A stretch of 64,000 nt of DNA from Acidobacteriota bacterium (GTDB taxonomy: Bacteria > Acidobacteriota > Thermoanaerobaculia > Multivoradales > Multivoraceae), in assembly GCA_028875725.1 (NCBI GenBank), contig JAPPCR010000006.1:689786-753785 (forward strand), written 5' to 3'. The translations under genes and the position numbers were made by a program. Under the pieces are notes generated by a model that did not search any database, was not told where the DNA came from, and saw only the letters and a list, made by a program, of their open reading frames with translations. Below are positions 41,997 to 49,544 of the stretch, one piece after another (the stretch's first letter is position 1; the number at the start of each line of letters is the position of its first letter).

Positions 41997-43550
41997 ATGA
42001 AGCGAACCCATCGACGCGAGTTCCTCAGGACCGTGGGGGCGGCGACGGCAGGCGTGGCCGTTGCGTGCAGCCTGCGTTCAGAGCGGGACCTGGATCGCAT
42101 GCCCAATGTCGTCTTCATCCTGGCCGACGACATGGGTTACGGCGACATCACCGGGTTGAACCGCGACTCGCAGATCCCGACAGCGAACGTCGACCGCCTG
42201 ATCCGCGAAGGCCGCTACTTCACCGACGCCCATTCGCCTTCGGCCCTGTGCACGCCGACCCGTTACGGCGTGCTCACCGGCCGCTACTGCTTCCGCACGC
42301 GGGTCAAGCGCAGCGTGCTCTGGGGCTACAGCCGCCACCTGATCGAGCCCGAGCGCACGACGGTCGCGTCGCTCCTCAGGGACAGCGGCTATCGAACCCA
42401 TTGCATCGGCAAGTGGCACCTGGGCATGGACATGCCGGCGCGGGGCCGCGACGGTTTCCCCGAGGGCGACGAGGTCGTCGATCAGCGGGCTTACACGGGC
42501 GATGTCGACTGGGCGGGCCGGATCGAGAACGGGCCGGTCGCCAACGGCTTCGACACGTTCTACGGCATCTCGGCTTCGCTCGACATGCACCCCTACATCT
42601 ACATCGAGGACGACCGCTTCCTCGGCGAGTGCACGGTCGAGAATGACCTGCTCTTCATCACCGAGGACACCAGGGAAGAGCGCTACGGCGACAACCTTGG
42701 CCCGGCCCATGCCGACTTCCGCGCCGACGAGGTGATGCCGAAGCTGACCCGACGGACCGTGGAGACGATCGAAGCCCAGAGCGCTGGCGAGCCGTTCTTC
42801 GTCTTTCTCGGGCTGACGGCTCCCCACATCCCGATCGTCCCCTCGGAGAAGTTCCGCGGACTGAGCGAGATCGGGCCCTACGGGGACTTCTGCCTCGAGG
42901 TTGATGACACGGTGGGGCAGGTGCTCGACGCCCTCGATCGCAAGGGGCTGACCGACGACACGCTGGTCATCTTCACCGCGGACAACGGCTGCGCGCCCTA
43001 CATCGGAGTCGAGGAGATGAACGAGCGGGGGCATTACCCCAGCTACGTCTACCGGGGCTACAAGTCGGACATCTACGAGGGGGGCCACCGCATTCCGTTC
43101 GCCGCCCGCTGGCCGCGGCGCATCCCCGCGGGAACCCGCTCGGACGAGACGATCTGCCTGACGGACCTCCTGGCGACTTGCGCCGGCATCACCGGCACGA
43201 AGCTCCCGGAAGACGCCGGCGAGGACAGCTACGACATTCTCCCGGCGCTCCTCGGCGAGCCGCTGTCCGCGCCGATCCGGGAGGCGACCGTGTATCAGGC
43301 GGGCGACGGCTCGTACGCGATCCGGCAGGGGCGCTGGAAGCTGGAGGACACGCCGAGTTCGGGCGGCTACTACCGCGTGTCCCGCGAAGAGGCGCGCGAA
43401 ACCGGCCTGCCGGAGATCCAGCTCTACGACCTGTCGGCGGACGTCGGCGAACGGAGGAACGTGTACGCGGAGCACCCCGACGTGGTGGAACACCTGATGG
43501 CCCTGCTCGAGATGTACAAGCGCGAACCGCGCAGCGCACCCGTGCTCTAG
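41997..43550 (+). CDS. sulfatase, arylsulfatase type (Cys-type), Tat-exported
   Basis: 517 residues. A Tat-like signal (THRREFLRTVGAATAGVAVA) may also be a lipobox at Cys24. NVVFILADDMGYGDITG gives the metal-binding Asp pair. The sulfatase signature is LCTPTRYGVLTGR with Cys85, which is converted to formylglycine. GKWHLGMD, DNGCAPY and FAARWPRRIP are also present. It hydrolyses sulfate esters of a sulfated glycan or aryl sulfate outside the cytoplasm. The maturation enzyme is not in the window. It is the first of three sulfatases in 4.5 kb. Confidence 0.9.
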   Translation: MKRTHRREFLRTVGAATAGVAVACSLRSERDLDRMPNVVFILADDMGYGDITGLNRDSQIPTANVDRLIREGRYFTDAHSPSALCTPTRYGVLTGRYCFRTRVKRSVLWGYSRHLIEPERTTVASLLRDSGYRTHCIGKWHLGMDMPARGRDGFPEGDEVVDQRAYTGDVDWAGRIENGPVANGFDTFYGISASLDMHPYIYIEDDRFLGECTVENDLLFITEDTREERYGDNLGPAHADFRADEVMPKLTRRTVETIEAQSAGEPFFVFLGLTAPHIPIVPSEKFRGLSEIGPYGDFCLEVDDTVGQVLDALDRKGLTDDTLVIFTADNGCAPYIGVEEMNERGHYPSYVYRGYKSDIYEGGHRIPFAARWPRRIPAGTRSDETICLTDLLATCAGITGTKLPEDAGEDSYDILPALLGEPLSAPIREATVYQAGDGSYAIRQGRWKLEDTPSSGGYYRVSREEARETGLPEIQLYDLSADVGERRNVYAEHPDVVEHLMALLEMYKREPRSAPVL

Positions 43551-43561
43551 CAGTCCGGCGG

Positions 43562-44965
43562 CTACTTCGCGTTCGTCCCGGGAAGGAACCCGCCGAGCTC
43601 TTCGACGACGGAGGCGTACTCCGGCAGGGAAGCCAGGTTGGTCCACTCGTTCGAGTCGGCGTTGTGGTCGTAGAGCTCCCTGCCGCCGTCGTGGTACTCG
43701 ATGTAGCGCCAGCGCTCGGTACGGACGGAGTGGTTTCGGTAGCCGTACGTCGTCAGCACGGGCCGCGGCCACTCCGACTCCGGGTTCTCGAGCAGGGGCA
43801 CGAGGCTCTGGCCGTCCAGTCCGCGTCGACCGGGGACGCCGGCAAGCTCGACCAGGGTGGGGTACAGATCGATCAGGCTGACCGGGCGTGGACTCGTGGC
43901 GCCGCGCCGGGTTTCCGCCGGCAAGGAGATGATCAGTGTCGTGCGGGTTGCTACTTCCCAGAGTGCGTGCTTCCGCCAGTGCTGCTTCTGGCCTAGATGC
44001 CAGCCATGGTCGCCCCAGAGCACGACGATCGTGTTGCCGGCGTGCTCGCTCTCGTCCAGGGCGTCGAGTAGCCGGCCGACGTGCGCGTCGACGAAGCTGA
44101 TCGTTGCCAGGTAGCTCTGCACGGCGCGGTGCCACTGGTCGTGCTTCAGCACCATCGCGTGGTCCTCGCCGTGCCGGCTGAAGTTGCGGGAGTCCGAGAC
44201 CGCGTACACCTCCGCCGCGAGTTTCTTTCCGAACGCCGGAAGGTCGTCGCGGTCGCTGTCCAGGGTCGCCGGCAGTTCGACGCCCTCGAGTGGGTGCATG
44301 TCGAAGTACTTTCTGGGCACGTACCAGGGCAGGTGGGGCTTGGTGAAGCCGCACGCCAGGAAGAATGGCTTCTCGTGCGCCTTGTTCAGCTCGCCGATCG
44401 TCCAGTCCACGATCTTGACGTCGAACATCTCGGAGTCGTCCATGTCGAGCGGTCCCCAGGGTGCCCACGCGGACTCCGGGACATGCTCCTGCCGTTCCCC
44501 GATGTGCCGGGCGCCCCTCGGCCGCGCCGGCGTGTAGTACTCGTCCCAGGAGTCCGGATCGCCGGCGCGCGTTCCATGGAAGATCTTGCCGCCGCCCCGC
44601 GTGGAGTAGCCGTGCGCTTTCAGGTGCTGCATCAGGGTCACGGCGTCGGGCAGCTTCTCGCGAAACCGCTCGCCGTTGCCGTAGACGCCGGACTTCGAGG
44701 GCAGGACGCCCGACAACAGACTGACCCGGGAGGGGTTGCAGAGAGGCGCCGGCGCGTAGGCCCTGGTGAAGGACACGCCGCGGCGCGCCAGGCGATCGAT
44801 GTTCGGCGTGCTCGCCTGTGGGTGACCGGCCAGGTGGCCGACCCAGTCGTTCAGGTCGTCGACGGCGATGAAGAGAATGTTCGGAGGCCGGTCCTGCGCA
44901 GGCGCGGGTGTAGCGACGAGCACGGACAAAGCGATGAGCGATGCAGGGAATAGGAACCTGAGCAT
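43562..44965 (-). CDS. sulfatase, iduronate-2-sulfatase-like (Cys-type)
   Basis: 467 residues from the ATG at 44965. The frame is open farther upstream but that part is antisense to the next sulfatase. The signal peptide is FPASLIALSVLVATPAPAQ. Features are PPNILFIAVDDLNDWVGHL, the CNPSR active site with Cys76, GKIFHGTRAGDPDSWDEYY, and HLPWYVPRKYF. The DDLNDW and KPHLPWYVP forms are typical of iduronate-2-sulfatases. These remove 2-O-sulfate from glycosaminoglycan-like polymers. It faces the first sulfatase tail to tail with an 11-bp gap. Confidence 0.9.
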   Translation of the reverse strand: MLRFLFPASLIALSVLVATPAPAQDRPPNILFIAVDDLNDWVGHLAGHPQASTPNIDRLARRGVSFTRAYAPAPLCNPSRVSLLSGVLPSKSGVYGNGERFREKLPDAVTLMQHLKAHGYSTRGGGKIFHGTRAGDPDSWDEYYTPARPRGARHIGERQEHVPESAWAPWGPLDMDDSEMFDVKIVDWTIGELNKAHEKPFFLACGFTKPHLPWYVPRKYFDMHPLEGVELPATLDSDRDDLPAFGKKLAAEVYAVSDSRNFSRHGEDHAMVLKHDQWHRAVQSYLATISFVDAHVGRLLDALDESEHAGNTIVVLWGDHGWHLGQKQHWRKHALWEVATRTTLIISLPAETRRGATSPRPVSLIDLYPTLVELAGVPGRRGLDGQSLVPLLENPESEWPRPVLTTYGYRNHSVRTERWRYIEYHDGGRELYDHNADSNEWTNLASLPEYASVVEELGGFLPGTNAK

Positions 44966-45030
44966 GCTGCCTCCCGACCTTCGTTGACCCGCTCTACTAT
45001 AGGGCTGGATCGAGCCGCTAGAGTCGTCGT

Positions 45031-46509
45031 GTGAAGCAGACCCGCCGAACCTTCCTGGCTTCCTCCGCCGCGATGCTGAGCGCGGCGGCGTTGCGCGCCA
45101 GGCGACCGCAGGCGGGCAGAGCGCCGAACATCCTCCTGTGCATCTCCGACGACCAGTCCTGGTTGCACACCGGGGCCGGAGGCGATCCGATCGTCCGGAC
45201 ACCGGGCTTCGACCGGGTGGCGGAGGAGGGCGTGTTCTTCCCGCACGCCTTCTGCGACGCGCCGACCTGCGGACCTTCGCGCAGCGCGCTCGTGACCGGT
45301 CAGCCGATCTGGCGACTCGAGGAAGCGGGGAACATCCACAGCACCCTGCCGGCGAAGTTCGCCACCTATACCGAACTGCTGGAGCAGGTGGGCTATGCCA
45401 TCGGGCACACGCGGAAGGGCTGGGGTCCGGGGCGGTTGCCGCCGGGAGGCCGCACGCGCAACCCGGCGGGCGACAAGTTCGAGAGCTTCGAGGCCTTTCT
45501 TCAGACCCGCGGCGAGGACCAGCCGTTCTGCTTCTGGCTCGGCAGCTACGACCCGCACCGGCCCTACACGGCGGGATCGGGGCAGGAATCGGGCAAGGAT
45601 TCGGCGAAGGTCGAGGTTCCTCCGCACCTGCCCGATCACCCGATCGTCCGCGACGACATTCTCGACTACTACGTCGAGGTGGAGCGGTTCGATGGAAGGG
45701 TGAACGCCGCCCTCGAGCTCCTCGAACAGGCGGGGGAGCTCGAGAACACGCTCGTCGTCGTCACCAGCGATCATGGCATGCCGTTCCCGCGGGCCAAGGC
45801 CAGCCTGTACGACTACGGCAGCCGGGTGCCGCTGGCGGTTCGCTGGGGCGAGAAGATTCCCGGCGGTCGGGTCGTCGACGACTTCGTCAGCCTGAGCGAC
45901 CTGGCTCCGACGTTTCTCGAAGCGGCGGGACTGGAGCCCGCGGAGGGGATGACGGCGCGGAGCCTGTTACCGCTGCTCGCCTCTTCGGCCGGCGGCCGCG
46001 TGGAGCCGGACCGCGACGCGGCCTTCATCGCGATGGAGAGGCACGATGGCTGCCGTCGCGGCGGCAAGGGCTATCCCTGCCGGGCGATCCGGACGGTGAG
46101 CCACCTCTACATCCGGAACTTCGAGCCGACGCGTTGGCCGTCCGGTTCGCCGAACGCGAAGGACTGCGCCCGCGGCATCCCCTACGGCGAGATCGACTCG
46201 TCGCCGACGAAGACCCTGATGATGGAATCGCGTGGCGAACCGGGGATCGACCGTCTGGCCGAGCTCTCCTTCGGGACCCGGCCGGAGAACGAGCTCTACG
46301 ATCTACGGAGCGATCCGGGCCAGTTGAACAACCTGGCGGGGCAGCCCTCCGCGCAGCCGCTTGTCGGGCAGCTTCGCGATCGGCTGATGGACCACCTGGC
46401 GGCCACCGGCGATCCTCGGGCCCTGGGCCTCCCCGCACCTTGGGACTATTACCCCTACTACGGCCGGCGGGTCAACGAGGACTGGGAAGTCGATCCGCCG
46501 CCGGGCTAG
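45031..46509 (+). CDS. sulfatase (Cys-type), Tat-exported
   Basis: 492 residues from a GTG start. The Tat signal is KQTRRTFLASSAAML. Features are PNILLCISDDQSW, the active site FCDAPTCGPSRSALVTG with Cys80 for formylglycine, TSDHGMPFPRAK, and ENELYDLRSDPGQLNNLAG. This is the heparan N-sulfatase-like group. It is divergent from the iduronate-2-sulfatase-like gene (65 bp between starts). The three sulfatases probably attack one sulfated polysaccharide from different bonds. Confidence 0.9.
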   Translation: MKQTRRTFLASSAAMLSAAALRARRPQAGRAPNILLCISDDQSWLHTGAGGDPIVRTPGFDRVAEEGVFFPHAFCDAPTCGPSRSALVTGQPIWRLEEAGNIHSTLPAKFATYTELLEQVGYAIGHTRKGWGPGRLPPGGRTRNPAGDKFESFEAFLQTRGEDQPFCFWLGSYDPHRPYTAGSGQESGKDSAKVEVPPHLPDHPIVRDDILDYYVEVERFDGRVNAALELLEQAGELENTLVVVTSDHGMPFPRAKASLYDYGSRVPLAVRWGEKIPGGRVVDDFVSLSDLAPTFLEAAGLEPAEGMTARSLLPLLASSAGGRVEPDRDAAFIAMERHDGCRRGGKGYPCRAIRTVSHLYIRNFEPTRWPSGSPNAKDCARGIPYGEIDSSPTKTLMMESRGEPGIDRLAELSFGTRPENELYDLRSDPGQLNNLAGQPSAQPLVGQLRDRLMDHLAATGDPRALGLPAPWDYYPYYGRRVNEDWEVDPPPG

Positions 46510-46543
46510 AGTTGCCTCAACCCCCCTCTGGAAGGAGAAACGC

Positions 46544-46873
46544 ATGAACAGAGTCGACTGGTACTACCACCGCAACGGCTGAACGAGCTGCAAGAGAGCG
46601 TCCAAGTTGATGGACGCACGCGGCGCGGAGATTGCGGACAGGACCCCGGCGAGCCGCAAGTTGGGCCGGGCGCATGCGGAGGCGCTGCTCGCCGACGCGG
46701 AGACCCTCTATGTCGCCAAGGGGCGAAAGCAGGCGGAACTGCAGGCGTCGGATCCCGGCGCGGCCGACCTGATGCTGGGCCCGACGGGCAACCTGCGAGC
46801 GCCTGTGGTCAGGGTGGGCCGCACGCTGATCGTGGGCTACCACGAAGAGGCTCTTGCCCAGGCCCTCGACTGA
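46544..46873 (+). CDS. ArsC/Spx-like (seleno)protein with in-frame UGA at the first redox Cys
   Basis: The ATG at 46544 has a strong ribosome site (GAAGGAG). It reads MNRVDWYYHRNG, then TGA at 46580-46582, then TSCKRASKLMDARGAE and on to a normal stop (109 residues if TGA is read as selenocysteine). The TGA sits exactly where ArsC/Spx proteins have the first Cys of a CxxC pair, giving UTSC. The remainder has the family's RKQAELQ-like middle and LRAPVVRVGRTLIVGYHEEAL end. A 7-bp hairpin follows 14 nt after the TGA, as a bacterial SECIS would. A thiol/selenol redox role in the cytoplasm is likely. Without readthrough only 12 residues are made, and no good restart exists. Confidence 0.8.
46598..46617 (+). 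promoter_or_regulatory. candidate bacterial SECIS hairpin
   Basis: GCGTCCA at 46598-46604 pairs perfectly with TGGACGC at 46611-46617 around the loop AGTTGA. The stem begins 15 nt past the TGA and the loop begins about 22 nt past it. The second loop base is G. Spacing, a small loop and a G among its first two bases fit the known bacterial SECIS form that binds SelB. It lies inside the coding sequence, as usual for bacteria. Confidence 0.65.
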
Positions 46874-46880
46874 GGGGGTC

Positions 46881-49544
<2,664 letters not shown>

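Follow-up and report, generated by a model that had tools for sequence, protein, structure and literature searches.

An arsenate reductase-like selenoprotein with a UxxC motif, in which U is selenocysteine (Sec), is already in print. The Global Ocean Sampling selenoproteome lists "Arsenate reductase 2, UxxC" (cd03032) from ocean reads (PMC2398784), PMC13188914 has an "Arsenate reductase-like protein, UxxC" under NCBIfam NF041106, and PMC9312934 has it under COG1393; the last two both cite the ocean study for it. ArsC-like selenoproteins are also listed in PMC1794560, and a term search of the main text of PMC12013277 finds no mention of ArsC or arsenate reductase. The sections of this literature that treat the family show no function for it. 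Here, we report a gene at 46544-46873 (+) of a 64,000-nucleotide (nt) window of an Acidobacteriota bacterium (GCA_028875725.1, contig JAPPCR010000006.1, positions 689,786 to 753,785) that very probably encodes a 109-residue NF041106 protein, with an in-frame UGA read as Sec, an ArsC/Spx-like fold, and a likely role as a selenol-thiol redox enzyme. Since the family is named in the relevant passages of PMC2398784, PMC9312934, and PMC13188914, the gene is a further member of a described family, in Acidobacteriota. A sequence-only reading of the window, made before any database search, had overrated its novelty, since NCBIfam already models the family and reviews list it as a UxxC selenoprotein.

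One frame spans the gene, with 12 codons from the ATG at 46544, a TGA (46580-46582), 96 further codons, and an ordinary stop, itself TGA (46871-46873), at or near which Cys homologues also finish. AAGGAG, which resembles a ribosome-binding site (46532-46537), ends 6 nt 5' of the ATG. The internal TGA is the predicted Sec codon and takes the first position of the UxxC motif (U-T-S-C, residues 13 to 16), and the TGC at 46589-46591 encodes Cys16, the predicted resolving cysteine. The TGA at the first Cys of a CxxC, the 96-codon continuation, and the ribosome site had all been pointed out in the sequence-only reading, and the observation of a UGA-interrupted frame is confirmed. In a codon-usage scan of the 264 TGA-joined frames of the window, this frame ranked second among the four that passed thresholds on both sides of the TGA (under stricter thresholds, no frame passed and the target itself was lost). 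The frame exceeds chance expectation.

Conservation was assessed in 147 related genomes, the gene's own included, with a family match taken as NF041106 at E up to 0.001. Matches were found in 67 genomes (29 above the model cut-off), and 66 of the 67, including all 29, had exactly one TGA, placed in the UxxC; the sole exception (G129, locus L103) was a weak match in the Cys form, CTTC. Within the genus, the TGA was present in 20 of 21 genomes. A search of the remaining genus genome (G016) also failed to find the window's lon copy, its best Lon match having 57% identity, so the assembly may lack this locus, or the locus may have been lost. Across 396 genomes of the phylum, some shared with the relatives set, 83 matches in 82 genomes comprised 45 with one TGA, 37 with no stop, and 1 with TAG; all 36 matches of at least 53.7 bits had one TGA, and the weak ones are probably other ArsC/Spx relatives. 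Pooling gave 83 loci (67 from relatives and 16 phylum-wide, two repeats included), and a script placed the UGA site in 81 of them; the other two are L103, the Cys form, and L115, which was not recovered. GTDB records name 18 loci at 89 to 94% identity as Acidobacteria/Acidobacteriota, Holophagales, Thermoanaerobaculia, Vicinamibacteraceae, and Candidatus Multivorans thiocomprendens. A distant ArsC-like branch of the same class (L101, L102, and L104) also has UGA in UTSC, with Cys in L103.

The joined protein matched NF041106 ("ArsC family (seleno)protein," ArsC_rel_Se_1) at 97.6 bits (cut-off, 85; residues 4 to 103) and Pfam ArsC (PF03960) at 27.8 bits (cut-off, 24), and its UTSC at residues 13 to 16 is the N-terminal UxxC/CxxC, with Sec (UGA) or Cys, expected of NF041106 members. 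The query for the family, homologue, and PDB searches had one residue too many, a 110th translated from the terminal TGA. Neither family match reaches it (NF041106 stops at 103, Pfam at 105), and the fold was predicted from the correct 109 residues. Of 639 homologues, the listing covered 120, from which we read 18 longer proteins. At the Sec column, ten of these (full-length, 38 to 53% identity) have Cys, four have Trp, one has Arg, and three begin after the column. Relatives have Sec (TGA) or Cys at this position, as the sequence-only reading would have it, except for the few database entries that carry Trp or Arg. Positions invariant in the alignment of the query with the ten Cys homologues (A4, 11 sequences) include W6, Y8, R10, C13 (the Sec column), C16, K59, G60, and all nine residues of GPTGNLRAP (residues 79 to 87, 46778-46804), in which Pro87 is the cis-proline predicted from the fold class. 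The Trp proteins (P0041, P0043, P0045, and P0089) are metagenome proteins, and the Arg is in P0012; judged at the protein level, the Trp residues perhaps reflect gene prediction that translated UGA as Trp.

Compared with described systems, the protein has the same UxxC as NF041106 members, and no difference in architecture was seen. The ocean "Arsenate reductase 2" family is also UxxC, a likeness drawn from its published description (PMC2398784) and not from compared sequences. ArsC of the Escherichia coli type and the UxxS selenoprotein arsenate reductase share the Pfam ArsC superfamily with the protein. Spx (1z3e, 3ihq, and 6ghb) is like it in fold and in the position of the CxxC, and Spx chains were the top PDB profile match (E 7e-9 with A4), but the protein falls below the cut-offs of the Spx/MgsR model TIGR01617 (20.9 bits; cut-off, 75.05) and of PRK01655 (11.6 bits; cut-off, 123), has a predicted Sec in place of Cys, and is shorter (109 versus 131 to 132 residues). 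The predicted fold is Spx/ArsC-like. No second ArsC-family gene was found in the genome by a search that does not report UGA-split genes and could miss another.

The genome with the gene (4.54 Mb; 97.96% complete) holds selA (350.1 bits), selB (TIGR00475, 350.5 bits, matched in two stretches of a single frame), selC (tRNA-Sec, 74.1 bits; ARAGORN tRNA-SeC, anticodon tca [UCA]), and selD (252.9 bits), so that the Sec machinery proposed for this organism is all in one genome. SelA was above cut-off in 137 of the 147 relatives, and Sec use is general among them. Genes for thioredoxin reductase and glutathione synthetase are also present in the genome. Two further observations concern these genes. 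At L017 (1393-3627, −; 744 residues), selD is fused behind an apparent FAD/NAD-type oxidoreductase domain, named by eye, and has an FCGGC motif, so the usual Sec position is a Cys. In one relative (G013; C189, 9129-10138), SelA is split between two adjacent matches, likely by a frameshift or assembly fault.

Downstream of the UGA, a predicted bacterial Sec insertion sequence (SECIS) hairpin lies at 46598-46617, with a 7-bp stem (GCGTCCA/TGGACGC) and a loop, AGTTGA, that starts 22 nt past the UGA and has its G at 46606. The bacterial SECIS model given in PMC13188914 has a small apical loop, 16 to 37 nt from the UGA, with a G at position 1 or 2 that is often followed by G or U. The hairpin proposed in the sequence-only reading is present and fits these constraints (GU at loop positions 2 and 3, 22-nt spacing), the rules being applied by comparison and not with bSECISearch. 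Under criteria of 7 bp, a loop of 4 to 8 with G in the first two places, and a stem beginning 9 to 29 nt on, a similar hairpin follows 21 of the 1,198 TGA triplets of the window (both strands, any frame) and arises in 8,086 of 100,000 synonymous re-codings of the same peptide (8.1%), so the hairpin alone is weak evidence. Constraint on the sequence adds to it: among 20 genus sequences (19 distinct), the synonymous difference per codon and pair was 0.030 in codons 14 to 26 versus 0.261 in codons 27 to 108, about ninefold lower.

Three hairpin variants were aligned across the relatives. In the window's variant (24 sequences, 16 distinct; the other 4 of its 28 share the same 54 bases with included ones), 99.1% of cells are paired, and one pair shows G-C, A-U, and C-G. 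The second variant, from other Acidobacteriota, is a 5-bp GCACC/GGTGC stem with loop C-G-U/G-G-A/C, 18 nt after the UGA; in its 35 sequences, 100% of cells are paired, with one compensated pair, a number reached by 16 of 500 shuffles and one slid control. The third (8 bp, loop GUU, 13 sequences) has 93.3% of cells paired, the outermost pair being broken in 6 of the 13 sequences, and its three compensated pairs cover 7 cells; shuffles reached the cells in 0 of 500, the covariation score in 0 of 500, and the pair number in 11 of 500. Two repeat fetches were left out of the second variant, and L101, L102, and L104 are outside these alignments. G is at loop position 1 or 2 in all 72 aligned sequences, and the pairs of the predicted hairpin covary in the alignments, most clearly in the wider sequence set; both the grouping and the three structures are by-eye readings of the same sequences, so the pair counts lean towards them. 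The sections of the literature that deal with the family hold no description of the three variants. The deep set of relatives, nearly all with UGA, together with these variants, is useful for SECIS models.

The interpretation of the gene as a selenoprotein, made in the sequence-only reading, is supported by these results. Several others pull away from it or from the redox enzyme proposed here. For the hairpin, an Rfam scan of 46000-47200 returned no family up to E 1, and synonymous difference in codons 1 to 12 (0.032) is as low as in the SECIS region, so part of the signal there could be a 5'-end effect; in the window's variant, five of seven pairs never vary and one covaries (2 cells), with 58 of 500 shuffles matching its number of compensated pairs and 4 of 500 its covariation score. 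For the machinery, a search of the genome for Pfam SelB-wing_2 (PF09106) gave no match, and SelA is about equally common in relatives with a family match (64 of 67; not G012, G058, or G070) and without one (73 of 80), so its presence does not mark this gene. For the fold, searching the PDB with this one sequence returned no hit below E 0.1, and the best Foldseek match to the predicted fold reached only E 8.3e-4 and a template modelling (TM) score of 0.58. The selenol-thiol (UxxC) oxidoreductase mechanism is one that we infer from fold and motif only, and the close fold matches to Spx and putative arsenate reductases lower our confidence in the full explanation.

Those matches bear on two readings in which the protein is still a selenoprotein. 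One makes it an Spx-like redox switch acting on RNA polymerase, and not an enzyme, in keeping with the Spx chains that top both the profile and the fold matches and with the N-terminal CxxC of Spx; its scores well under both Spx models, its shorter chain, and the near-universal Sec in the lineage, which would suggest catalysis, make this very unlikely. We give equally little weight to the idea that the only ArsC/Spx-type protein of the cell in this lineage is a selenium-based, Spx-like redox sensor or switch, whose SECIS was reshaped into three interchangeable forms in step with changes in the protein sequence. That the protein is a selenium-using arsenate reductase is very unlikely: TIGR00014, which PMC13188914 pairs with the UxxS arsenate reductase in its entry for that protein, is absent among NCBIfam matches up to E 1 (HMMER filters can lose weak matches), and no ars genes are among the six neighbours scanned. 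The remaining two readings deny Sec altogether. The only point for an assembly error or a decaying pseudogene is that the TGA interrupts the frame, and its probability is close to negligible, given that 66 of 67 matched genomes share this TGA and that amino-acid change past it is low (0.079 nonsynonymous versus 0.261 synonymous differences per codon and pair, codons 27 to 108). Nor do we give more than minimal credence to the UGA being read as another residue (Trp, Gly, or Cys) through a changed code or suppressor tRNA; Trp stands at the column in 4 of the 18 relatives read and Arg in one, but the same gene terminates with TGA, the genome has the Sec gene set, Cys stands there in 10 of the 18, and the Trp residues may themselves be products of gene calling.

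SelB with Sec-tRNA is predicted to bind the hairpin, and Sec would be inserted at residue 13, just ahead of helix 1 in the predicted fold. In the proposed oxidoreductase, the Sec13 selenolate would attack a disulfide or a substrate that is oxidised or S-thiolated, with Cys16 resolving the selenenylsulfide and Pro87, in cis, shaping the site. Thioredoxin or glutathione may recycle the enzyme, the genome having a thioredoxin reductase and a glutathione synthetase gene, and the protein likely shuttles electrons. The relatives set could also be used to ask why selenium is retained in an ArsC/Spx-type redox protein.

The expectation that gene callers would truncate the gene is borne out by the length of the database copies. 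The closest proteins among the matches listed (P0002 to P0039, except P0012) have 81 to 88 residues and about 72 to 79% query coverage, and an 88-residue frame from 46607 in the window likewise starts after the UGA. By length and coverage, then, the closest listed copies are expected to start after the UGA and to lack the active-site Sec; two named copies among them are called "hypothetical protein." In this case, standard gene prediction seems to miss the active site.

The gene lies between a sulfatase upstream (45031-46509) and a convergent lon downstream (46881-49544), and the six neighbours scanned encode sulfatases, Lon, an acyltransferase, and a DUF1295 protein. In tblastn searches of 18 genus loci with the window's neighbours, lon was found in all 18 and the upstream sulfatase in 15 (missing in L055, L057, and L067); five loci from other genera showed neither within flanks of about 1.5 kb. 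On these grounds, we rejected an operon joining the gene to the sulfatase. Ten neighbour frames, picked by hand from 9 wider loci and scanned with Pfam, showed no recurring partner gene, so the gene looks free-standing; two frames had no Pfam match, and the sole repeated domain was FtsX permease (2 of 10, in an FtsX-type and a MacB-type protein). The other TGA-joined frames passing the codon-usage thresholds were at 48294 (+), first ranked and rejected as antisense to lon; 24023 (−), rejected as an ATG immediately follows its TGA; and 26580 (+). Three sulfatase genes, all PF00884, stand in a row at 41997-46509, two on the forward strand and one on the reverse.
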